IMG/VR virus record: IMGVR_UViG_3300033148_005795
Coordinates: 1-30,753 of that record
Reading direction: 5' to 3' (one strand)
Length of the DNA stretch: 30,753 nt
Source: a virus
Shown one piece after another: positions 2,928 through 30,753 of the stretch. How positions within the stretch are numbered: the first letter of the stretch is position 1; each line of letters opens with the position of its first letter. Under the pieces are notes generated by a model. The model ran no database searches and was not told the origin of the DNA. It saw only the letters and a list, made by a program, of their open reading frames with translations. A program made the translations under genes and the position numbers.

Positions 2928-2999
2928 GTTGGCCGTGGTGTAGGGGTCGCACGCCTGACTGTGGATCAGGAAGAGGGGGTTCGAGTCCCCTCGGTCAAC
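2928..2999 (+). tRNA. tRNA-His (anticodon GTG)
   Basis: A full cloverleaf can be drawn. The acceptor stem is TTGGCCG with CGGTCAA (one G-T pair), preceded by an encoded G at position -1 that faces C73, the identity element of bacterial tRNA-His. The D stem is GTGT/ACGC. The anticodon stem CCTGA/TCAGG encloses the loop CTGTGGA with anticodon GTG at 2961-2963. The T stem-loop is GGGGG-TTCGAGT-CCCCT. CCA is not encoded. It is the only tRNA found in the window. Phage tRNAs can supplement host codon supply or replace tRNAs cleaved by host defences. Confidence 0.93.
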
Positions 3000-3020
3000 C
3001 TTCCAAAGAAAGGAGCAGTA

Positions 3021-19378: not shown

Positions 19379-20308
19379 TTGGCTAGTGTAACGCTCGTCG
19401 AATCGGCGAAGCTCAGTGTGAACGAGCTCGTAAGCGGGGTGATTGAAAACGTCATCACCGTGAACCAAATGTTCCAGATGCTGCCTTTCGAGGGCATCGA
19501 CGGCAACGCCCTGCAGTACACCCGAGAGAATGCCCTGGGTGCCGTGCAGCTCGGAACGGTAGGTACCGTGATCAGCGCCGGCAAGGCCGCTGCGACCTTC
19601 ACCAGCGTCACCAGCGCGCTGACGACCATCATCGGCGACGCCGAGGTGAACGGCCTGATCCAGGCCACCAGAAGCAAGGAGACGGACCAGACCACGACCC
19701 AGGTCGAGAGCAAGGCCAAGAGTGCTGGGCGCCAGTACCAGGACATGCTCATCAACCAGGACATGCTCATCAACGGGACCGGCGCAGGGCTGCAGTTCAG
19801 CGGACTGCTCAACCTGGTCGACGCCACCAAGCTGATCGCCCACAACGGCAATCTCTCCTTCGCCATCATGGACGAGCTCATCGACCTGGTGACGGACAAG
19901 GACGGAGAGGTCGACTACTTCGCCATGAACGGTCGGACGGTGCGTGCCTACCTGGCGTTGCTCCGAGGCCTCGGTGGGGCCGCCATCGGCGAGGTCATAA
20001 CGCTGCCGAGCGGACAGGATGTCCCCGGGTACCGTGGGGTGCCGATCTTCACCAACAACTGGATCCCGGTGAACCAGACGACCGGGAGTCTGACGAACAC
20101 CACCACGATCTTCGCCGGCAACTTCGACGATGGCTCCCAGAGCATCGGCATCTCGGGCCTCACAGCGGCCGAGGAAGCGGGGATCGTCATCGAGGACGTG
20201 GGTATCCACCAGACACGGGACGAGTACATCACCCGTGTGAAGTGGTACTGCGGTTTGGCCTTGTACAATCTCAACGGTCTGTCCGCGGCCAGCGGTGTGT
20301 ATGACTGA
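19379..20308 (+). CDS. Major capsid protein, HK97-like (309 aa, TTG start)
   Basis: This should form the head shell. It starts at TTG: AGGAGG ends seven bases upstream, whereas the ATG between them reads only four codons before a stop. N-terminal residues 1 to 30 are helical; residues 30 to 75 (MFQMLPFEGIDGNALQYTRE) and the later region (VDYFAMNGRTVRAYLALLRG, then DVPGYRGVPIFTNNWIP) resemble the P- and A-domains of HK97-fold capsids of similar length. It ends YITRVKWYCGLALYNLNGLS, typical of the C-terminal strand. Residues 121 to 132 are a perfect tandem duplication QDMLIN-QDMLIN. Two hairpins follow the stop codon. Confidence 0.85.
   Translation: MASVTLVESAKLSVNELVSGVIENVITVNQMFQMLPFEGIDGNALQYTRENALGAVQLGTVGTVISAGKAAATFTSVTSALTTIIGDAEVNGLIQATRSKETDQTTTQVESKAKSAGRQYQDMLINQDMLINGTGAGLQFSGLLNLVDATKLIAHNGNLSFAIMDELIDLVTDKDGEVDYFAMNGRTVRAYLALLRGLGGAAIGEVITLPSGQDVPGYRGVPIFTNNWIPVNQTTGSLTNTTTIFAGNFDDGSQSIGISGLTAAEEAGIVIEDVGIHQTRDEYITRVKWYCGLALYNLNGLSAASGVYD
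19739..19774 (+). repeat. Perfect 18-bp tandem duplication in capsid gene
   Basis: CAGGACATGCTCATCAAC occurs twice head-to-tail (19739-19756 and 19757-19774), keeping the frame and adding six residues (QDMLIN) to the capsid protein. The absence of any difference between copies suggests a recent event or an assembly artefact. Confidence 0.95.
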
Positions 20309-20424: not shown

Positions 20425-20724
20425 ATGGCCAAGAAGCTCTCCATGCCTTCAGAGGTGCGTGATACGCGTACCTCTGTTTCCCGTTCCAGATCCACCTCCA
20501 AACCGGCGCAGCCCAGGGTTCGCTCTGCAGCGGCGAAGGCGAGTGAGATCGTTGTCCCTTCGCCGAAAGAGGGGGAGACCGTCAGCCTGAGTATCAAGCG
20601 GGCTGAGGGAGGGCACATCGTCGAGCAGCACACCACGGACAAAAACTGGCGCACCAAATCGGAGCGCACCAGGGTGGTGACGGGCGACCCCAAGATCACA
20701 GTCGAGACCGAGACCGAGGAGTAA
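20425..20724 (+). CDS. Small capsid-proximal protein, 99 aa
   Basis: GAGAGAGGA precedes the ATG. The first 45 residues are basic, Ser/Arg-rich and probably disordered (VSRSRSTSKPAQPRVRS); the rest is a short beta-like domain (GETVSLSIKRAEGGHIVEQH, then RTRVVTGDPKITVETETEE). Position directly after the capsid gene suggests a head decoration or minor head protein, but no family is recognised. Confidence 0.5.
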   Translation: MAKKLSMPSEVRDTRTSVSRSRSTSKPAQPRVRSAAAKASEIVVPSPKEGETVSLSIKRAEGGHIVEQHTTDKNWRTKSERTRVVTGDPKITVETETEE

Positions 20725-20746: not shown

Positions 20747-21913
20747 ATGAAGACGTTTATCTCAACTGGACCGCTCGAAGGGCACACTGGCATGATCGCC
20801 AGTTGGATGTTCACGGACGGTCGCCTGGAGCTGCCCGATGACGATGCTGATGCTGCCAGCCGAATCCTGTGCAGATTCCACGGCTGCAAGATCCTGGAGA
20901 CCGGGGACATGATCGTTGCTATCTGGGGACCGAAGCGGGATGGCGCCTGGCGCACCAGAGCCCAGCAAGTCGCCCGGGAGCGATGGCCAGGGCGTGCCCT
21001 TCAAGTGAGGCATCCGAGCCAGTGGAAGCCCCTGTCCAAGGAAGAGGCAGCCCGCATTGACGGCGTCCTGGTCACCGAAGGCTGCGAACAGGTGGTCGAT
21101 GGCTGCTACGCCGGGGGCATCAGGCCAATACAGGTCGTCACCATTCCGCTCAACCCCGGCGTGCCGGATCCAGGCCGCAGTGCGTCCGAGACGCAGGGGA
21201 AATCGCGGACAGGAACGTACCTGGCAGACCCGAATGATGATGATCCGACCAACCCGGAAGACCCACCCGTTACGGATCCAGGGCCCGGGGCGCCTGGTGA
21301 GGTGCTGGCTCCGGCTGGTGTCCCCGCGACCGATCCGGACGCCGACGAGCGCGCGACGAAGACGGCGGTGGCAGAGCGATTCATCGAGAAGGACCTCGAA
21401 GAGATCGTCGGGCTGCTGAAGGACGGGGACATGGCAACCGTCCTGACGGACGAATTGCTTGAGGAAGCTCTCAAGATTGAACTGGCCTCTGGGGAACCGA
21501 GGGGAGAGGTGGTGGAGGTGTTGAGTCTGCGCGTGGGCAAGCCGGTCGACGCGGTGGTGGAAGCAGCTACCGGCGCGGTGGCCACCGACGAGACAGCGGA
21601 TAACGTCCCGGATGAGGCCCAGGTTGAGGCTCAGGTTCAGGATGGAGATCAGAGCCCGGACGCTGCAGAGCCTCCCGACGATAGCGGGAAGGTGACGCCG
21701 GCAACGGTCTCGCCAGAGACGTTCGTCAGGATGTCGGTACGTGCAGTGCGCGACGCGCTCGGGTCGGACGAGTACCGGCCTATCCTGACAGCCGACTTCC
21801 TGCGGGACGCGATTGAGGCAGAACAGGAGAAGGCCAGGCCGCGTGAGGACACGTTGCGGAAGCTGCGCATGCGCATGCACCGAGAGCAATCGAACCAGAA
21901 GACGTCACCCTAA
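20747..21913 (+). CDS. Capsid-proximal protein with shared N-terminal module (388 aa)
   Basis: Residues 1 to 50 (starting MKTFISTG, with FTDGRLELPDDDADAA and RILCRFHGCK) are clearly the same module as residues 1 to 50 of the glycosyltransferase at 25348. Residues 50 to 135 are a second small domain. A Pro/Asp-rich linker follows. Residues 216 to 263 and 327 to 376 are two copies of a helical unit with the pattern (V/I)LT..(L/F)L..A......PR......LR.R. This layout suggests a head-associated protein, for example a head-tail connector accessory or a scaffold for other proteins. Function unknown. The N-terminal module might be a capsid-binding domain; that is inference. Confidence 0.6.
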   Translation: MKTFISTGPLEGHTGMIASWMFTDGRLELPDDDADAASRILCRFHGCKILETGDMIVAIWGPKRDGAWRTRAQQVARERWPGRALQVRHPSQWKPLSKEEAARIDGVLVTEGCEQVVDGCYAGGIRPIQVVTIPLNPGVPDPGRSASETQGKSRTGTYLADPNDDDPTNPEDPPVTDPGPGAPGEVLAPAGVPATDPDADERATKTAVAERFIEKDLEEIVGLLKDGDMATVLTDELLEEALKIELASGEPRGEVVEVLSLRVGKPVDAVVEAATGAVATDETADNVPDEAQVEAQVQDGDQSPDAAEPPDDSGKVTPATVSPETFVRMSVRAVRDALGSDEYRPILTADFLRDAIEAEQEKARPREDTLRKLRMRMHREQSNQKTSP

Positions 21914-21939
21914 CTGCGAATCTGCGAAGGAGTCCTGCG

Positions 21940-23232
21940 ATGAAGTGGTGCATACTCGGAATTGACGGCTACCTCGGCTGGACGCTGGCGTGCCATCTGG
22001 CATCCCTGGGAGAACAGGTGTGCGGAGTGGATGCGTTCCTTCGCCGGAAGTGGGTCGAACGCGTGGGCTCCAGATCGGTGATTCCCATTGCGTCGATGCC
22101 TGATCGGCTGGCGACGTTCGCTGCGGCGTTTCCTGATCACGGGCCGCTGCCGTTCACAGAGCTGGATCTGCTGGCGTACACGAAGATGCGGGACTTCCTG
22201 AAGGGGCAGGAGCCGGATGTGATCGTTCACCTGGCAGAGCAGCCGAGCGCGCCGTATTCGATGATCGACCAGGAGCCTGGCGCTGTGACGATCACCAACA
22301 ACATCGTCGGAACCTACAACGTGCTGATGGGGATGCGGGAGGTGTGTCCGGAGGCGCATCTGATCAAGATCGGAACGATGGGCGAATACGGAACCCCCGG
22401 TATCCCGATCCCTGAAGGGGTATTCCCTCCTCTTGCGCTTTGGGAGCACGGCACGCCAGAGGGGGAACAAGTATCAGGCTGTGAGCCGGTCTGGCCTTCG
22501 TTTGTCGGGAGGCTCTCCGGTCTCCAGTTCCCCCGCTGCCCAGGCTCGACGTACCATGCTGCCAAGTGCATGGACACCGTCATGGTTGAGTTCGCCTGTC
22601 GCATGTGGGGGCTGACTTCAACGGACATCATGCAGGGCGTTGTGTATGGGACAAGTATCCCGGCCTTCGATGACCCCGAGCTGCGCACACGGTTCGACGT
22701 AGACGAGTGCTTCGGCACCGCCATCAATCGCTTCGTTGCCCAGGCCATCATCGACGAGCCGATCACGCCATACGGGGCTGGCCACCAGAAGCGAGGCTTT
22801 CTGCCGCTTATCGACTCGATGCGGTGCATCACCCTGTTGGGCCAGAATCCACCTGCTGCTGGAGAGTACCGAACGGTCAACCAGCTCGAAGCCGTGTACG
22901 ACATCACCGACCTGGCGCTGAAGGTGCGGGCTGCAGGGAAGCGCGCTGGCCTGTCCCCGCGCATTCGCAACTGGACCAACCCGCGGACAGAGCAGGAGGA
23001 ACACACGTACGAAGTCATACACGACAAGCTGACGGCGCTGGGCTACGAGCCGACGCGGGACATGGACTCGGTGCTGGATGGAATGTTCGCCGATCTGCTT
23101 CCCCACAAGCGCCGCATCGAGAGCGTGGCGAAGCTCATTCGTCCGCGTACGAGATGGCAATCCATAGGACCATGTCAGGAAGAGCTGGGGCCGCTTGATG
23201 GACCGGAAGAGGCAGAGGCCGTAGAGGCATGA
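21940..23232 (+). CDS. sqdB: UDP-sulfoquinovose synthase-like enzyme (SQD1/SqdB family, 430 aa)
   Basis: The family makes UDP-sulfoquinovose from UDP-glucose and sulfite, using NAD. The sequence follows plant SQD1 closely: GIDGYLGW (Rossmann NAD loop, residues 7 to 14), IASMPDR, EQPSAPYSMID (100-110, SQD1 has EQRSAPYSMID), NNIVGTYNVL, KIGTMGEYGTP (143-153), Y205-x3-K209, QGVVYG and CFGTAINRFVAQAI. T146, Y205 and K209 correspond to the catalytic Thr, Tyr and Lys. A 20-residue insertion before the Tyr and an acidic C-terminal tail are differences. In bacteria and plants the product feeds sulfolipid; archaeal Agl3 feeds a protein glycan. Here it leads a cluster of glycosyltransferases and sulfotransferase-like genes, so glycan use is more likely. 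Next gene overlaps (ATGA). Confidence 0.85.
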   Translation: MKWCILGIDGYLGWTLACHLASLGEQVCGVDAFLRRKWVERVGSRSVIPIASMPDRLATFAAAFPDHGPLPFTELDLLAYTKMRDFLKGQEPDVIVHLAEQPSAPYSMIDQEPGAVTITNNIVGTYNVLMGMREVCPEAHLIKIGTMGEYGTPGIPIPEGVFPPLALWEHGTPEGEQVSGCEPVWPSFVGRLSGLQFPRCPGSTYHAAKCMDTVMVEFACRMWGLTSTDIMQGVVYGTSIPAFDDPELRTRFDVDECFGTAINRFVAQAIIDEPITPYGAGHQKRGFLPLIDSMRCITLLGQNPPAAGEYRTVNQLEAVYDITDLALKVRAAGKRAGLSPRIRNWTNPRTEQEEHTYEVIHDKLTALGYEPTRDMDSVLDGMFADLLPHKRRIESVAKLIRPRTRWQSIGPCQEELGPLDGPEEAEAVEA

Positions 23233-24665
23233 GCGCACCGCTCGTTACCGTTATCGTTGGGGTGCGCTTTCCTCCAGATGAACCAGAACGCAAGCGCAAT
23301 GCTTTGGCGACAATGCGTGCGCTCAACCGCCAAACGCTGCCGCGCGACCAGTACCGGCTCATCCTTGTCGAAGAGTCGGATAAGGCACGGTCGTCTGCCA
23401 AACTGACTGCGCTCGCGGACAAGACGTTCTGGCGCAAGAGCGATCAGCCGTACAACCGAGGCGCGGTATTCAACCACGGCGTGGAGAAGGCCGCGCTGGA
23501 TCCTGGCGACGTAGTCTGCCTGATGGACTCGGACCTGGTGGTGCCAGAGGACTTCCTGTCTTGCTGTGTCGAAGAGATGGCCAATAACGAAGTGATGATT
23601 GCCTTCGACGAGATTCGGTATCTCGATACAGAAGAGAGCGGTAGTGTATGCCGCGCTCTTGAAGACGACCACCCGAGTCTGCTGGAGTTCAGTGCCGATA
23701 GCAGCGATACCCTCAAGAAAAGGACCCGGAAGTTTCCTGGCGTGGGCGGGGCAATGTGGATTCGCGTCGACTTATACAACGAAATAGGCCGTCACGATGA
23801 AGAATACATCGGCTGGGGCTGCGAGGACTCTGACTTGTACCTGCGGCTCGAGCTGCGGCTACAGAATCCGATTCTCAGGGCTCATCTACAGGTAGCCCAC
23901 CTGTGGCATGTAAACGCCGAGCGTGGCGAGACGTATGAGCGCAATCTGCGGCGGTACAGGTACAAGCGAAAACCGAAGCTGAACTATGGGCAAACGAAGG
24001 ATCAGGAAGGCGTAATCTTTGCCGCGAACGGAGCGCGGGTCTTCCACTTCGGACCCAAGGCCCAGAAGTTCGGCCGATACTGGACAGTGATGACCAGAAA
24101 GAAACACACGCTGTCGGAGCCGGATATGCTTGCTGCCATTGGCAAGCTGAACCTGCAGGGGACATACGTTGACGTAGGGGCGCACGTGGGCAACCACACG
24201 GCGTTCTTTGCCGGGTGTTGTCCGAGTACGCGGGTTGTCGCAATTGAGCCGGACCAGGACCGCATGGCGGCCCTGATGGAAACAGTAACTCTCAATCGGC
24301 TCAAAGGTGTCAAAACGCTGCGAATAGGAGCGTGGTCAAAGCGCGGGTTTATGGTACCGACAAATACGCTGAAGTGCACATTCTCAGAAATATCTGTACC
24401 CCTGGCGGCTGAGGCTAGGACGCTGGATGAGGTTCTACAGAAAGACAAAGATGTCATTCTGATCAAGATTGACACGGAGGGTTCGGAGCGCGAGATATTG
24501 CTTGGGGCGCAGGACGTATTAGCCAGGTGTCAGCCGCACCTGTTCGTCGAGACGATCGACCCGCGCGAGAAGGGCAGAATCGGAAAGATGCTGCACGGCA
24601 AGTACCGATTCGTCGCCACCTACAACGCGACCCCAACGCATCACTGGGCGCCGATAGCAAGTTGA
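23229..24665 (+). CDS. GT2 glycosyltransferase fused to FkbM methyltransferase (478 aa)
   Basis: Residues 1 to 260 are a GT-A glycosyltransferase: VTVIVGVRFP strand, LILVEESD, D100-x-D102 in MDSDLVV (metal and nucleotide sugar binding), GGAMWIR and the GWGCEDSDLYLR motif (195-206), as in galactosyltransferase/GT27-like enzymes. Residues 300 to 478 are an FkbM-type SAM methyltransferase: VDVGAHVGN (314-322), IEPDQD (339-344) and IKIDTEGSE (412-420). FkbM enzymes O-methylate sugars or other hydroxyls, so one protein may add and then cap a sugar. It overlaps the SQD1-like gene by four bases. The acceptor is unknown. Its GT domain is similar to that of the 25348 protein. Confidence 0.82.
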   Translation: MSAPLVTVIVGVRFPPDEPERKRNALATMRALNRQTLPRDQYRLILVEESDKARSSAKLTALADKTFWRKSDQPYNRGAVFNHGVEKAALDPGDVVCLMDSDLVVPEDFLSCCVEEMANNEVMIAFDEIRYLDTEESGSVCRALEDDHPSLLEFSADSSDTLKKRTRKFPGVGGAMWIRVDLYNEIGRHDEEYIGWGCEDSDLYLRLELRLQNPILRAHLQVAHLWHVNAERGETYERNLRRYRYKRKPKLNYGQTKDQEGVIFAANGARVFHFGPKAQKFGRYWTVMTRKKHTLSEPDMLAAIGKLNLQGTYVDVGAHVGNHTAFFAGCCPSTRVVAIEPDQDRMAALMETVTLNRLKGVKTLRIGAWSKRGFMVPTNTLKCTFSEISVPLAAEARTLDEVLQKDKDVILIKIDTEGSEREILLGAQDVLARCQPHLFVETIDPREKGRIGKMLHGKYRFVATYNATPTHHWAPIAS

Positions 24666-24670
24666 GTCTG

Positions 24671-25351
24671 ATGGCCACACTCCCTACTGGCAAGCGCCTC
24701 ATCATCGGGCTCGGGACCGGGCGCTGTGGGACGGTGACGCTGTCTCGCTTCCTGAGTGCCCAGCAGGACGTGGATGTAAGCCACGAGGGCCGAACTATCA
24801 AGGCTCCTGTTGCCCTGCTGCCCTGGGAACGCAATCGGCGTTCCTTTGAGAAGGTGCTGGCGCGTGTCTATGAGTGCGGCGCCGGGGCAACCTACATCGG
24901 CAACGTTGGGTTCTACTGGCTGAACTATGTGCGCTGGTTGATGGAGGATGCCGGTAATCGAGTACGATTTATTTGCTTGCAGCGAGACCGCGCCGAGACC
25001 GTTGACAGTTTCCTGCGACGTTGCTACCGCCGGAATCGCGACCATTGGACACTGGACAGACATGAGCGCGGCTGCCAAGTGAGTCCGCTGGCCGACAAGG
25101 CTTTCCCAAAGTTCCCAGGAACGCTAAAGCAGGCTCTTGGCTGTTACTGGGACCAGTACTACAAGATTGCTGCCCAGTTGGTGGCTGAGTTTCCTGACAG
25201 CTTTCGCATCTTCCCGACTAGTGCACTCAATGACCAGTCGGAATACAGCGGCATTTTGGACTGGGCTCAGATACCGAAGGAACAGCGACGCACCTGGAAG
25301 CCACGGCGATTCAACTCGTGCCCGGCGTGGGGGAATTTGAAGAAGAGATGA
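24671..25351 (+). CDS. Sulfotransferase-like protein A (226 aa)
   Basis: Sulfotransferases move sulfate from PAPS to a hydroxyl. GLGTGRCGTVTLSRFL (residues 13 to 28) matches the 5'-phosphosulfate-binding loop, and VRFICLQRDRAETVDSFLRR in the middle matches the strand and Arg of the 3'-phosphate-binding motif. Residues near 155 (YWDQYYKIAAQLV) match the typical W..YY helix. The C-terminal part is similar to that of many bacterial sulfotransferase-fold proteins. A paralogue is at 28675. The ATG at 24671 is used because the gene starts five bases after the previous stop. The substrate is likely a glycan from the neighbouring enzymes; this is inferred. Confidence 0.7.
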   Translation: MATLPTGKRLIIGLGTGRCGTVTLSRFLSAQQDVDVSHEGRTIKAPVALLPWERNRRSFEKVLARVYECGAGATYIGNVGFYWLNYVRWLMEDAGNRVRFICLQRDRAETVDSFLRRCYRRNRDHWTLDRHERGCQVSPLADKAFPKFPGTLKQALGCYWDQYYKIAAQLVAEFPDSFRIFPTSALNDQSEYSGILDWAQIPKEQRRTWKPRRFNSCPAWGNLKKR

Positions 25352-27291
25352 AGACCTTCACACTTACAGGTGAGCAGCGGGGGTATACTGGCAAGGTTGG
25401 CGGTTGGGACTTTGAAAACGGATCCCTCGATCTGTCGGATGCAGACGGTGGGCTGGCTGAGAGGATTCTGTGTCGTTTCCACAACTGCAAGATGCAGGTG
25501 ACGGAGGATGGTGGTGGCAGCGCACGGCTCATTGTCGTCGTAGGCTTCAGGGTGAATGATGAACAGCCAGAGCGGGCCACCAATGCGTTGCATTGCCTGC
25601 GCGCGCTCGCTGACCAGTCGATTGAGCGGGACACATACCAGATCATTCTCGTCGAAGAAGACAAGAAGACGCGCTGTCCCAAGGAGCTGCTGGAATACGT
25701 AGACCAGCATGTGTTCTGTCAATCGACGGCAGCGTATAATCGGAGCCGAGCGTTCAACACCGGGGTGGAACATACTAAGGCAGGTGGCGATGATCTCCTG
25801 TGCCTGATAGATGCCGACATTCTTGTTGATCGCGAGTATCTAAGTCGCTTAGGACTGCACCTGCGTAATGCAGATGCAGTGTTGCCCTATCGGTCAGCTT
25901 TGTATCTACACCAACTCGCTACCCCCCTCGTTATTGAGGGACGGTTTGGGACTGACCCGGACCTGGCAGAGGCGGCCAGATATTCAGGCCGAACATGGGC
26001 GGCCTTGGGTGGGGCTCTGTGGATCAAGGCATCGTTGTACAAGAACCTCGGCGGCTATGACAAGCGGTTCGTAGGTTGGGGCTGTGAAGATCGGGATATG
26101 TGGCACCGTCTCAATGCGGTCACGGAAGTAGAAAGAGTGCCAAGGATAATGTACCATCTGTGGCACCGGAGAAGTGACCCGGGACCTGAGCACAAAGTGA
26201 ATCGGAAGCTATTGAAGAAATTGCACCCCGGTATGCGCGGCCGGCAGAGCAACAAGACAGGCGTCACCGTAGGAGAGAAACCAGAACGGCCACCCCGGCG
26301 AGAGGGGAAACTGCAGATACTCTGGCTTACCATCAACCGCGATCATCGGGTTGCGCGCATCTTCCAGCCGGTCATGGAGCAAATCAGGCGGCGTGAAGAT
26401 GTCACGGTGTACTGTCACGACCGGTTCCGTTGGGATTTCTCAACCGTTATGGGACCGAACCCCAAGCCACAGCCACCGGAGCTTGATGTTGCCTGGGTTA
26501 ACGAGTTCGACATTGTATTCACCGATGCGGTTTTCGGGTACCTCGGCGACGACTGGCCCGCGGTGACCGCGTATAAGTGCTGCCTGATAGAAGATTGCCA
26601 CTGTGAGATGCCGGAGCGGTACGTCAGGCAAGCGTACGAGCAATTCGGGTTCGACGCTTTCTTCTACCGCTACCAGGAAGGCTTCGAGAAGCACCATAGC
26701 TATGTCGATGTTCCGACACGATGGCTGCCGCACAGTATCGACCCGTTAATCTTCCGTGTAGGAGATGCCCACAGTTTTACCGAAAGGGAGCATACAGCAC
26801 TGTCGGTAGGAGTAGACGTACAGGCGACCTATCCGCTGCGGTTTCAAGCGAGTCGAGAGCTGAGGGGCCTGGATGGCTACAAACGGATTCAACGACCAAT
26901 AGAGAACGATGGGAACGCGTGGCCCGTAGGGGAGGACTATGCAAACCTCCTCCGTGCGTCAAAGATCGTTGTGAGTGGGTGTAGTATCTACCATTACCCA
27001 ATCCTGAAGACGTTCGAGATCCCTGCCTGCGGCGCCGTCCTGGCTTGTGATGCGATTCCCGACTTAGACGAACTCGGGTTTGTGCCAGAAGTGAACTACC
27101 TCCCGTTGAAAAAAAACGTCCCTGGTCATATCCGCGAAGTGATAGAACACTGGCTGGCAGAAGGTCAGCGAGATGCACTTGAGACAATTGCGAAAGCTGG
27201 CACCAAACTCATACTGAATAAACACACCGCCGCCATTCGTGCTGGGGAACTATCGGCTCAGCTCAGAGAACTATTAGAGGTGAAGACATGA
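25348..27291 (+). CDS. Three-part glycosyltransferase: shared module, GT-A and GT-B domains (647 aa)
   Basis: Residues 1 to 50 (MKTFTLTG, FENGSLDLSDADGG, RILCRFHNCK) are the module also found at the N-terminus of the capsid-proximal 20747 protein. Residues 60 to 300 are a GT-A domain like that of the 23229 protein, with D155-x-D157 in LIDADI and GWGCEDRDMWHR (243-254). Residues 321 to 647 are a GT-B domain (ILWLTINRD, WLPHSIDP, HYPILKTFEIPACG) closely related to the whole 29337 product, reminiscent of CgeB-type glycosyltransferases. The ATG is preceded by GAAGAAGAG and overlaps the preceding stop. Two transferase domains could add two sugars in turn. The N-terminal module may direct the enzyme to the head; this is inference. 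Confidence 0.8.
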   Translation: MKTFTLTGEQRGYTGKVGGWDFENGSLDLSDADGGLAERILCRFHNCKMQVTEDGGGSARLIVVVGFRVNDEQPERATNALHCLRALADQSIERDTYQIILVEEDKKTRCPKELLEYVDQHVFCQSTAAYNRSRAFNTGVEHTKAGGDDLLCLIDADILVDREYLSRLGLHLRNADAVLPYRSALYLHQLATPLVIEGRFGTDPDLAEAARYSGRTWAALGGALWIKASLYKNLGGYDKRFVGWGCEDRDMWHRLNAVTEVERVPRIMYHLWHRRSDPGPEHKVNRKLLKKLHPGMRGRQSNKTGVTVGEKPERPPRREGKLQILWLTINRDHRVARIFQPVMEQIRRREDVTVYCHDRFRWDFSTVMGPNPKPQPPELDVAWVNEFDIVFTDAVFGYLGDDWPAVTAYKCCLIEDCHCEMPERYVRQAYEQFGFDAFFYRYQEGFEKHHSYVDVPTRWLPHSIDPLIFRVGDAHSFTEREHTALSVGVDVQATYPLRFQASRELRGLDGYKRIQRPIENDGNAWPVGEDYANLLRASKIVVSGCSIYHYPILKTFEIPACGAVLACDAIPDLDELGFVPEVNYLPLKKNVPGHIREVIEHWLAEGQRDALETIAKAGTKLILNKHTAAIRAGELSAQLRELLEVKT

Positions 27292-27902
27292 TGCACCGTG
27301 CAAGTCTCAACCACTGGCTCAATGAGGACAACCCCGTGCCGCGCGAGCTAAAGCGGCTCATGGAATTGCGCTACAACTTTGCCGTCCAGCACGTCAGCGG
27401 GGTAGTCTACGATGCCGGGTGTGGGCATGGCTTCGGTACCAATATCCTGGCCAATTCGCCGTCAGTGACGCAGGTAATAGCACGAGACATTGACGACGAA
27501 GCCGTCGCCATCGCGGGAACCCAATTGCAGAGCCGCTATAACGTCGATCTGGGGGTGATGGATATTGAGGCCGAACCAATTCCCCGGGGCGTTGATTACG
27601 TTGTCTGCACTGAGGTGATCGAGCACCTTCAGAACGCCGGTGCATTCATACGGAAGATCAAGCGGAGCACGTGCGCTGGGGCTGTATTGTCTTGGCCCCT
27701 AGACCGGTCCGTCAACCCTTTCCACTTGCGTAAATTCGAGGCAGGAGAGATGGAGAGGCTCATGGGGGGCTGGGATGGCGAGGTTCGCCAAATGGTCCAA
27801 CGAGTTCCCACACGCAACAAGCTGCGCCTGTATGAGTTGGGAGTGTTCCACCGTCGCACACGCAAAGCAAGCGAGGTAAGTCATGGCACTGTCGAAAGGT
27901 GA
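27288..27902 (+). CDS. SAM-dependent methyltransferase A (204 aa)
   Basis: Class I Rossmann methyltransferase. VVYDAGCGHGFGTN (residues 39 to 52) is motif I, ARDIDDEAV is the acidic motif II, and DYVVCTEVIEHL is the typical post-II segment. Similar proteins methylate sugars, quinones or small molecules. The 30277 product is a paralogue (VVYEPGCGHGYGT, ARDTDANAI). The gene overlaps the glycosyltransferase by four bases, suggesting joint expression. The target is unknown; a glycan hydroxyl or carboxyl is most consistent with context. Confidence 0.8.
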   Translation: MMHRASLNHWLNEDNPVPRELKRLMELRYNFAVQHVSGVVYDAGCGHGFGTNILANSPSVTQVIARDIDDEAVAIAGTQLQSRYNVDLGVMDIEAEPIPRGVDYVVCTEVIEHLQNAGAFIRKIKRSTCAGAVLSWPLDRSVNPFHLRKFEAGEMERLMGGWDGEVRQMVQRVPTRNKLRLYELGVFHRRTRKASEVSHGTVER

Positions 27903-28662
27903 GTTTCTGCGAATGTACCCCAATCTTCCGGCGTTACCGGAAGTAGAGGTCCCGCTCGACTGGAACACCCACGAGTTCTACACGGCGTCAGGGGACAATC
28001 CAGATATAGACACAGCGGATGCCCCGGAGGACGTCTGGGACGCTGGTGGTGAGTGGCCAGGCTACGTCGGCGCTGGTGATGTGACCGTTGTCTCTAACAG
28101 CGGGCAGGACGCAGCAGGAGGGACCGGGGCGACAGGCACACGGTTCTGGGGCACGAACGATGCCGGCGTAATCACCACCGGCGCTGTGACACCGACTGGG
28201 GTCGTTGCTGCGGCTAGTGGTGTCGATCTCATCGCAGTATTTGAGGCCTGGGTCAATGCCGCAGGCACAGATGAGTCCAACGCCGGTACGTTGACATTCA
28301 CCATCGGCGGTGTGACGGTCGCGGAGATTCAGCCTCTTGCAGGTCGCGCTCAGTCCGCTATCCGCCCGGTGCCGCCAGGGTACCAAGGTTTCATCATTGG
28401 AGTCGAGGTATCGGCTTCGGAGATCGGGACGGGCGTTGGGCATACGGTGGCTGAACTGAAGACAGCAGTCACGGGGAGCGCGTGGCAGAGGCGACTGTCC
28501 ATGAGTATCGAGGGCACTGGTGGCCCGTACATAGCCCCGCTCCGAGTTGCCATACCTCTCCAAGCGGATGCAGTGGCGAAGGTTTCATGCGCTCAGGTCA
28601 TGTCCAATAACATCCATGTGAGCGCTCTCCTGACGATGCTGCTGGTGGCACACCAGAACTAG
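27883..28662 (+). CDS. Probable virion surface protein, beta-rich (259 aa)
   Basis: The product has a Gly/Ala/Thr/Val-rich, strand-and-turn composition. DAPEDVWDAGGEWPGY (residues 45 to 60) followed by VTVVSNSGQDAAGGTGATG strongly resembles the start of phage structural proteins with a 'DVWdgGG...vS.s..D...GTGa.t' pattern found in decoration or fibre proteins. The rest is a likely beta sandwich (GTLTFTIGGVTVAEIQPLAG, then VPPGYQGFIIGVEV). It overlaps the methyltransferase by 20 bases and lies inside the modification island, so it could be the protein that is glycosylated. No signal peptide, which fits a virion protein. Role inferred. Confidence 0.6.
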   Translation: MALSKGEFLRMYPNLPALPEVEVPLDWNTHEFYTASGDNPDIDTADAPEDVWDAGGEWPGYVGAGDVTVVSNSGQDAAGGTGATGTRFWGTNDAGVITTGAVTPTGVVAAASGVDLIAVFEAWVNAAGTDESNAGTLTFTIGGVTVAEIQPLAGRAQSAIRPVPPGYQGFIIGVEVSASEIGTGVGHTVAELKTAVTGSAWQRRLSMSIEGTGGPYIAPLRVAIPLQADAVAKVSCAQVMSNNIHVSALLTMLLVAHQN

Positions 28663-28674
28663 GACCAGAACGAT

Positions 28675-29355
28675 ATGAGACTTCTCTTCGGTTGCGGTTC
28701 GGGACGGTGTGGCACAAAGTCGCTATCGAGGCTGCTACAGGCTCAGGGCGCCAAAGTATCTCATGTGATGGCCCACTGCCCTCCTGGAACTGGCTATCCT
28801 GGCTTCGACCTCAAGCTGCCGTGGGACGGCGTTGACAATCCCATCTTCCGCGAGGCCGTGTTCCGCATCTGCAGCCGAGATGGGGACGTGGCCGGCGATG
28901 TTTCGCCGTTCTGGCTCAACTACGTACCGCTAATTCTCGCTGAGTATCCCGACTGCCGGGTGATCTGCCTTCAGCGCGAGCGTGGTAAGTGCATAGCGTC
29001 ATTGCTGGAAATGCAAACCGGGATCGGACGCAATGACTTCTCTGAGGATGTCGGCGAGGATACGAGGGCAGCCAGGCTGACGCCGAAGTTTCCGCTGAGC
29101 CGAGAGGACGCCACGGCACGCTTTTGGGACTGGTACTACACTCAGGCGCAGCTTATTCAGAGCGCCTATTCTCGACGCTTCCGGATCTACCAGACGGAGA
29201 TGGTCCTCAACAACCCACACTATCAGATGGGCATGCTGATGTGGGCAGGCTTTGACGTCCCGGTGGTCGAACCGGGTATTCATTGCAATACGATGGTTGA
29301 GATTCGAGCAAAACGTGCGCGCAAGGCAGCGGGGCTATGCGAATCCTCTGGTTGA
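28675..29355 (+). CDS. Sulfotransferase-like protein B (226 aa)
   Basis: GCGSGRCGTKSLSRLL (residues 6 to 21) is the phosphosulfate-binding loop and VICLQRERGKCIASLLEM the second binding motif, both parallel to the 24671 product. The two proteins have the same length (226 residues) and share DWYYTQAQLI / DQYYKIAAQL, so they are duplicates that have diverged. ATG lies eight bases after AGGA. The end overlaps the next gene by 19 bases. Substrate unknown; probably a glycan or a peptide side chain in the same system. Confidence 0.7.
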   Translation: MRLLFGCGSGRCGTKSLSRLLQAQGAKVSHVMAHCPPGTGYPGFDLKLPWDGVDNPIFREAVFRICSRDGDVAGDVSPFWLNYVPLILAEYPDCRVICLQRERGKCIASLLEMQTGIGRNDFSEDVGEDTRAARLTPKFPLSREDATARFWDWYYTQAQLIQSAYSRRFRIYQTEMVLNNPHYQMGMLMWAGFDVPVVEPGIHCNTMVEIRAKRARKAAGLCESSG

Positions 29356-30290
29356 CAATCGACCGCGCAACGCGAATCCAGCTCATCCACCAGCCTATTA
29401 TGGAGGAGATGAAGAAGCTGGAGGACGTGACCATCTATTCACATGCGCGGTGCTCTCGAGAGGCGCCCGAGGGTGAACAGATACGCTTGCTGGGCGCTAC
29501 CTGGGTAAACACGTTCGACGTGGTATTCACTGACGCAGTATTCGGGTATATGTGTGAGGAGTGGGACAAGGTAACGGTCCTGAAGTGCTGTTACCTCCTG
29601 GACCTTCACGCCCTGCCATTTATCAAGCAGGTCTGTCTCAACTTCAACTTTGATGTCTTCTTCCACCGGACACGTGCTGCATGGCGAAAGGTTTCCCGCA
29701 AGTGGGGCCAGTACGGTATTTGGTTGCCGCATAGCTTTGACCCCGTGATATTCCACCCATTGGCAACAGCAAAGAAAGAGTATCAGGTCTTGTCCATAGG
29801 TGAGATCGCTGGTTCGTTCTACCCGGTACGCCAACAAGCTCATCTAGAGATGAAAGGCACAGAGGGGTATCGCCGCATTGAGAGACCTGCACGGAAGGCA
29901 CTCAAGCCGTGGCCGGTTCGCGATGACTACGCTGAGCAACTCGGTATGGCCCGTATCGCCATCAGCTCGTGCTGCACCAAAGGCTATCCAGTGATGAAGA
30001 CTTTTGAGATACCTGCCTGTGGAACAGCACTCGCAACGAATACGATTGCCGAGTTTGCGGACCTGGGGCTCGTCGAGGGCGTAAACTACATCGGGCTGGA
30101 CGACCGGTCGCGCGGGGCGATCAGGAAAAAACTGAAGTGGTGGCTGGCTCCGCAGCAGGAGTCCGCGCTTGCAGCACTAACCGCGGCTGGCACGAAGCTG
30201 GCCCACGAGCGCCACACGGCGGCGGTGCGGGCGCGCGAGCTGCAAGTTCATCTACGGAGACTACTGGAGGAACGTAATGGCAAAGGCTAG
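29337..30290 (+). CDS. GT-B glycosyltransferase (317 aa)
   Basis: It corresponds to the GT-B half of the 25348 protein along almost its full length: RILWLTIDR / QILWLTINR, FDVVFTDAVFGYM / FDIVFTDAVFGYL, WLPHSFDPVIF / WLPHSIDPLIF, YPVMKTFEIPACGTALA / YPILKTFEIPACGAVLA and KHTAA / RHTAA. The lower-case family resemblance is to CgeB-type group 1 glycosyltransferases. The missing GT-A and shared modules show that only the GT-B portion was copied, or that the 25348 protein gained its extra parts. It ends 14 bases inside the next gene. Confidence 0.8.
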   Translation: MRILWLTIDRATRIQLIHQPIMEEMKKLEDVTIYSHARCSREAPEGEQIRLLGATWVNTFDVVFTDAVFGYMCEEWDKVTVLKCCYLLDLHALPFIKQVCLNFNFDVFFHRTRAAWRKVSRKWGQYGIWLPHSFDPVIFHPLATAKKEYQVLSIGEIAGSFYPVRQQAHLEMKGTEGYRRIERPARKALKPWPVRDDYAEQLGMARIAISSCCTKGYPVMKTFEIPACGTALATNTIAEFADLGLVEGVNYIGLDDRSRGAIRKKLKWWLAPQQESALAALTAAGTKLAHERHTAAVRARELQVHLRRLLEERNGKG

Positions 30291-30753
30291 TCGAAATCAC
30301 TGGTATGCTCCAACCGATCACTACACCAGGGAGCTGCGGCGGGTACTTGAGGAACGATATATCCTGGCCATCGACAACGTGAAAGGCGTGGTGTACGAAC
30401 CTGGCTGTGGCCACGGTTACGGGACCTTCATGCTGGCCGGCTCGCCCAGGGTGACGCGCGTCATTGCCAGGGATACAGACGCCAATGCCATTGCTACAGC
30501 TTCCGTTCACTTGGCCGGCATTCCCAAGGTGCGGATCGCCGTCGGTGACATCTTGCAATTCCCGGTGCCCGAGTGCGACTGGATTGTGTGTTTGGAGACG
30601 ATGATGTATCTCCACGATCCGGAGGCCTTCCTGAAGAAGCTCAAGGATGCCGAGCCTACCGGGATCGTGCTGGAGTGGCCGCTGGGGAACCAGAATGGGC
30701 CCTTCGGTAAGCACAATTTCAAGGCGGGGGAGATGGCCCCGCTCATGGCCGAC
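30277..30753 (+). CDS. SAM-dependent methyltransferase B (partial, cut by window end)
   Basis: GGAGGAACGTA precedes the ATG. The first 159 residues are visible: VVYEPGCGHGYGT is motif I, ARDTDANAI the acidic motif, and DWIVCLETMMYLHDPEAF the post-II region; the last visible residues (FKAGEMAPLM) align with FEAGEMERLM in the 27288 product. It is a paralogue of that gene and completes the second sulfotransferase-GT-methyltransferase cassette. The C-terminus lies outside the window. Confidence 0.82.
   Translation, partial: MAKASRNHWYAPTDHYTRELRRVLEERYILAIDNVKGVVYEPGCGHGYGTFMLAGSPRVTRVIARDTDANAIATASVHLAGIPKVRIAVGDILQFPVPECDWIVCLETMMYLHDPEAFLKKLKDAEPTGIVLEWPLGNQNGPFGKHNFKAGEMAPLMAD

Follow-up and report, generated by a model that had tools for sequence, protein, structure and literature searches.

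In the mycobacteriophages Che8, Corndog and Myrna, phage enzymes glycosylate the capsid and tail tube (Freeman et al. 2023, cited in PMC12619734 and PMC12363180), and the available parts of these sources mention no head-protein domain on the enzymes; nor do the accessible parts of the literature examined offer an explanation of how phage glycosyltransferases reach virion proteins. In Mesyanzhinovviridae and their relatives, a small N-terminal module is carried by proteins encoded one or two genes past the major capsid gene (YuA gp58, Ab18 ORF55, PaMx11_16 and RcSimone-Hastad gp73), where it is present in single copy, with linkers and further C-terminal regions behind it. Here we analysed IMG/VR virus record IMGVR_UViG_3300033148_005795, a whole linear virus record (G000) of 30,753 nucleotides referred to below as the window, in which the same module occurs likewise at the N-terminus of a post-capsid protein (20747 product) and a second time at the head of a two-domain glycosyltransferase (25348 product). 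As in the mycobacteriophages, a phage-encoded glycosyltransferase (GT) would, as proposed here, act on virion proteins; since mycobacteriophage enzymes glycosylate virions, the proposed process has a precedent.

A module shared by a post-capsid protein and a glycosyltransferase

The features that carry the comparison are the following, with products named by the first coordinate of their gene.

19379 to 20308, plus strand: major capsid protein (phrog_212; Pfam Phage_capsid and the encapsulin SrpI-like family PF19307 just below cut-off)
20425 to 20724, plus strand: small protein between the capsid and module genes, weakly like PaMx11_17 ('virion structural protein'; phmmer E 1.8e-4 in an 11-sequence set)
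20747 to 21913, plus strand: post-capsid protein of 388 amino acids, comprising module, alpha/beta domain, disordered linkers and two helical units (AlphaFold2 (AF2), mean predicted local distance difference test score (pLDDT) 79.6)
20747 to 20908, plus strand: module copy 1, residues 1-54 (BLASTP, profile search, AF2)
20909 to 21151, plus strand: alpha/beta domain of the post-capsid protein, residues 55-135 (AF2 block, pLDDT 77-93)
21335 to 21571, plus strand: helical unit 1, residues 197-275, part of it weakly matching phrog_311 (AF2)
21713 to 21904, plus strand: helical unit 2, residues 323-386 (AF2)
25348 to 27291, plus strand: fused enzyme of 647 amino acids, in the order module, linker, GT-A, GT-B (Pfam, paralogy)
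25348 to 25509, plus strand: module copy 2, residues 1-54, then a GGGS-containing linker (BLASTP, paralogy)
25519 to 26289, plus strand: GT-A domain, residues 58-314 (PF00535 and PF02709 above cut-off; paralog of 23229)
26311 to 27279, plus strand: GT-B-like domain, residues 322-644 (PF13524, 44.8 bits; 43% identical to the free-standing 29337 product)

BLASTP aligned residues 1-54 of the 20747 and 25348 products without a gap (28/54 identical, 52%; 33/54 positive; 60.5 bits, E 1e-19 for a single comparison), and in an all-against-all blastp of ten island proteins the similarity between the two was confined to these residues (E 6e-14). The likeness proposed by the first-pass annotation is thus real, but it runs to residue 54 and does not end at residue 50; the same annotation was right to place 20747 near the capsid gene, except that the small 20425-20724 gene sits between the two. 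A search of the record against itself returned exactly two module copies, at 20747-20908 and 25348-25515, and no third. Two trivial origins of the pair were discarded. Chance similarity was ruled out by a Smith-Waterman comparison, in which the module pair scored 148 while 10,000 shuffles gave a mean of 20.9 (standard deviation 4.1) and a maximum of 52, and an assembly copy artefact was rejected because the two DNA copies differ widely, with 2.16 synonymous substitutions per site (dS).

Judged by domain matches and paralogy, the 25348 product is a three-part chimera of module, GT-A and GT-B, with a GGGS-containing linker at the join. That a two-domain glycosyltransferase stands behind the module was borne out, each of the two GT domains having a separate paralog in the surrounding gene island. 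All-against-all blastp aligned residues 58-314 with the GT-A domain of the 23229 product at 32% identity over 269 columns, residue 2 of 23229 falling on residue 58 of 25348, outside the module; because the alignment begins at residue 2 of 23229, GT-A is complete without the module. Both catalytic halves exceed the curated cut-offs of galactosyltransferase/GT2-type GT-A (PF02709, PF00535) and PF13524-type GT-B families, and the enzyme differs from standard GT-A and GT-B proteins in that the halves are joined together and to a phage head-region module, with GT-A occupying the place of the alpha/beta domain of the post-capsid protein. A literature search of open-licence papers found no description of a head-region module fused to a glycosyltransferase.

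As modelled by AlphaFold2 from 43 aligned modules, the module forms a compact domain (pLDDT 94.2) with strands at residues 2-6, 15-17, 20-23 and 26-29, a helix at 31-44 and a strand at 47-50, and it is predicted to fold as an independent, complete domain. On the strength of this stand-alone fold and of the module-less paralog 23229, we rejected the possibility, raised in the first-pass annotation, that the module belongs to the GT-A fold itself. Arginine 43 of the helix is kept in 4/4 window and sister-genome copies and in 21/30 other members with a residue there, and is probably exposed. In the full model of the 20747 protein both helical units were confident and the linker was disordered.

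The top named BFVD matches of the module were proteins of phages MW2, Xoo-sp2 and Xp15. Among the PDB matches listed by fold, neither the module nor the full 20747 model reached E<=0.001, and by sequence the module, the capsid, Ab18 ORF55 and YuA gp58 all lacked a credible PDB relative. The N-terminal 45 residues of Bacillus subtilis YqbF (PDB 2hjq) superpose on the module (Foldseek template modelling (TM) score 0.52; VIA Z 3.4, root-mean-square deviation 3.0 A, 44 aligned residues), a Z that ties with unrelated 50S ribosomal protein chains, and a search of the window record with the YqbF family PF14553 found nothing at E<=10. We regard this likeness between predicted and known structure as a lead; YqbF is encoded after the capsid gene of the B. 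subtilis skin prophage.

The module family and its place beside the capsid gene

A module profile seeded with the two window copies was run iteratively against the six-frame translations of 80 viral loci, which had been fetched solely by their capsid gene and whose capsids were 58-75% identical to that of the window; loci L001 and L002 are fragments of the window itself and were excluded from all counts. The iterated profile found the module just after the capsid gene in 73/80 of these loci. Except for the second copies in the window and in locus L003, its closest relative, every significant match shared the strand of the capsid gene and lay between 81 and about 1,370 nucleotides past that gene. 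The seven loci without a match were retained in the count of 80: four of them (L005, L006, L010 and L064) end within about 430 nucleotides of the capsid gene and one (L039) has about 950 nucleotides past it, while L021 and L049 have enough room, yet the module is apparently absent from them at the sensitivity of the profile. Capsid-based sampling is biased, and therefore queries were also built from the module alone, in the form of two subgroup alignments. In this module-led search 32/32 loci had a capsid gene 82-398 nucleotides upstream, and 8/32 were contigs outside the capsid-led set. The carriers of the module are therefore, in both searches, proteins of the head region, and the module does not occur mainly in proteins unrelated to heads, an outcome that by the first-pass annotation would have refuted its proposal. 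By this conserved position we take it to be a head-region module.

Across whole records the module was present in 76/83, with a single copy in each except G001, the contig of L003, which has two; the 83 records are not all distinct, because G005 and W01 are probably the same phage. The family corresponds to phrog_6213, of unknown function, which was matched by 39/43 aligned modules (best E 1.3e-20; window copy 1, E 9.7e-4), and in a Pfam search it corresponded to no family. The module match of 20747 lies 448 nucleotides after the capsid gene, in the post-capsid position of the phrog_6213-type module. The second modules, in 25348 and at L003:9985, are not post-capsid; both lie inside a glycan island.

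With viral_contigs, a two-sequence module alignment and the full enzyme each gave no match, and a four-sequence module alignment and a full post-capsid alignment each recovered the L003/L004 lineage only; a genome_contigs scan gave no match. Searching phages by tblastn yielded only matches with E of 3 or more for the module and no match for the full post-capsid protein, and a tblastn-type search with the enzyme matched four phage records, all inside query residues 58-307 and none reaching into the module.

Evidence from virions comes from phage ZC01, whose genome aligns with that of Ab18 over 98% of its length at 96% identity (PMC5418858). In the accessible part of a report on mass spectrometry of purified ZC01 virions (PMC11619397), 18 proteins had >20% coverage and 3 or more peptides; one of them is ZC01_056, a hypothetical protein whose gene follows that of the major head protein ZC01_055. 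The ZC01 gene order matches Ab18 ORF53-57, of which ORF55 carries the module, and with the ortholog assigned by this order ZC01_056 appears to be a module-bearing virion protein. Such a protein also brings up the idea that 25348 is itself carried in the particle through its module and would act on the host as an enzyme or by binding glycans; we consider this very improbable, since the epimerase, methyltransferase and sulfotransferase-like genes around it fit intracellular glycan synthesis.

The capsid gene product itself is similar to the shell protein of the SrpI encapsulin (PF19307 just under cut-off), and an encapsulin SrpI-like resemblance was also described for the capsid of phage Lydia (PMC11946847).

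Proposed docking of the enzyme to the head

On balance we think it probable that the enzyme docks to the assembling head via its module and glycosylates virion proteins as the particle forms. The post-capsid proteins (phrog_6213; YuA gp58, Ab18 ORF55) would be addressed to the head by their N-terminal module, which in this phage was duplicated and linked flexibly to a two-domain glycosyltransferase. The enzyme would then bind the same partner as the virion protein, either the capsid or the assembling head, and would glycosylate virion proteins during particle formation, with the capsid, 20747 and 27883 as candidate acceptors, and the sulfotransferases and methyltransferases would complete the glycan. 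Four elements of this scheme are inferences: binding through the module, the head as its partner, a virion protein as the acceptor, and completion of the glycan by the sulfotransferases and methyltransferases. The docking role suggested for the module in the first-pass annotation is partly supported and now stands on firmer ground.

The enzyme's copy of the module is under constraint. Against a family profile built without the four window and L003 copies, the enzyme module scored 28.7 bits and the post-capsid module 28.9 bits, both with E about 3e-5, while the best shuffle scored 8.8 bits (3,263 reported of 4,000 made). Between the window copies nonsynonymous substitutions per site (dN) amounted to 0.40 and dS to 2.16, a low dN/dS, and the ortholog pair with L003 gave a similar ratio (dN 0.35, dS 1.46). 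By these scores and rates the enzyme's module copy has not decayed. They also bear on the idea that the module is a passenger, in which illegitimate recombination among paralogs supplied a ready-made start and first domain without a role in glycosylation. Paralogs and rearrangements abound in the island, where a sulfotransferase/GT-B/methyltransferase trio is present twice, and the fusion is found in one genome only; yet the enzyme module equals the post-capsid copy in profile score, dN is well under dS, a 54-residue domain has been maintained in frame, and a second, unfused module copy lies inside the sister's island. We therefore consider a passenger unlikely, though worth keeping in mind.

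In a four-taxon module tree the best topology joined the copies within each genome (window and L003), and one old duplication as an alternative was not rejected (approximately unbiased test, p-AU 0.30). This is a weak preference for an independent duplication in each genome, or for co-evolution there. Partners that co-evolve or arose by recent duplication are what would be expected if the enzyme paired module-to-module with the 20747 protein, which would serve as acceptor or as bridge to the head. The shared fold signature and the similar profile scores of the two copies agree with such self-association, but the tree preference is weak, given the p-AU of 0.30 for one old duplication, and we judge this arrangement unlikely as well.

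The sister genome (L003/G001) is the closest relative, with a capsid 75% identical to that of the window and a 20747 ortholog 46% identical. Its glycan island is located between the post-capsid gene and neck-type genes (roles judged from sequence), and its second module is a separate gene, which overlaps its neighbours and has a helical-type C-terminal segment; GT-A and GT-B are also separate genes there. This separate second-module protein (L003:9985-10452) starts at a GTG within the last part of a methyltransferase gene, and its module contains an insertion of 10 residues. We tentatively entertain, while holding it somewhat doubtful, that the phage turned the head-addressing domain of a virion protein of its own into an enzyme targeting tag, a shared structural address thereby directing post-translational modification of the virion, and that in the sister the separate module protein acts as the scaffold or adaptor through which unfused glycosyltransferases work. 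In a survey of GT families in 46 records (the larger ones and the window), PF00535 and PF13524 occurred in only 2/46, G000 and G001, exactly those with a second module (naive Fisher p 0.001, kinship ignored). This co-occurrence is suggestive only, because G000 and G001 are close relatives and may reflect one event.

Several observations weigh against docking. The second module is known from two related genomes and the fusion was seen once, so that all may stem from one event. The dS between the copies is near saturation, and their shared identities do not fall significantly on family-conserved columns (p = 0.07). In proteins of the family, attachment to the head could be due to domains other than the module. 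The identification of ZC01_056 as the module protein rests on gene order, not on sequence, and 51/78 ZC01 ORFs were detected in the virion preparation overall (PMC11619397, available part), so the presence of ZC01_056 alone is weak evidence. Finally, the YuA record labels gp52, 55, 57, 59, 63, 64 and 65 'phage particle protein', whereas the module protein gp58 stays hypothetical.

If docking is correct, the shared head module would be a concrete, testable address tag on an enzyme. It would also hint at what the unnamed phrog_6213 family does and provide a small domain for loading cargo onto the capsids of this phage group, and virions of the lineage would be predicted to bear a phage-made, possibly sulfated and methylated glycan.

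The glycan island and other features of the window

The island is placed after the capsid and post-capsid genes, with PF00535, PF02709 and PF13524 above cut-off. Apart from the fused enzyme it comprises:

21940 to 23232, plus strand: NAD-dependent epimerase/dehydratase (PF01370, 61 bits)
23229 to 24665, plus strand: GT-A glycosyltransferase with FkbM methyltransferase, without module (PF00535, PF05050; paralog of the GT-A half of 25348)
24659 to 25351, plus strand: sulfotransferase-like protein, its stop overlapping the ATG of 25348 (ATGA; PF13469 below cut-off; 33% identical to 28675)
27288 to 27902, plus strand: methyltransferase (PF08241; 45% identical to its paralog 30277)
27883 to 28662, plus strand: phrog_8198 protein, of a phrog of unknown function, inside the island (E 1.6e-10)
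28675 to 29355, plus strand: sulfotransferase-like protein, second copy (PF13469 and PF17784 above cut-off)
29337 to 30290, plus strand: free-standing GT-B, without module (PF13524; paralog of the C-terminal half of 25348)
30277 to 30753, plus strand: methyltransferase, cut by the record end (45% identical to 27288)

Island genes overlap by a few bases in an operon-like manner and may be translationally coupled, as in a translationally coupled operon. The sulfotransferase-like/GT-B/methyltransferase trio occurs at 24659-27902 and again at 28675-30753, with the phrog_8198 gene between; the 27883 product is possibly a structural protein and a glycan acceptor. An entirely different target for the island would be host surface glycans or phage DNA, the module then having some other intracellular partner, and DNA and the serotype antigens of hosts are indeed among the substrates of phage glycosyltransferases (PMC12619734, available part). 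The position of the L003 island between genes of post-capsid and neck type, the phrog_8198 gene within the window's island, with its putative structural role, and the tie of the module to the capsid gene elsewhere all speak against such a target, which we consider the most improbable of the readings.

Both sulfotransferase-like genes (24659-25351 and 28675-29355) carry a G[TS]GRCGT loop, and two more are present in the island of sister phage L003. It is possible, from these genes, that a putative virion glycan is sulfated by the island sulfotransferases.

Elsewhere in the window, the terminase large subunit ORF (8049-9779) contains a mini-intein-like insert at about 9280-9710, between a cysteine (CFRGDTLVRTPAG) and VGN-Ser; since Pfam Intein_splicing matched the insert at only E 0.13, its reading as an intein rests mainly on known motifs. 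A tRNA-His (GTG) gene is located at 2929-3000.

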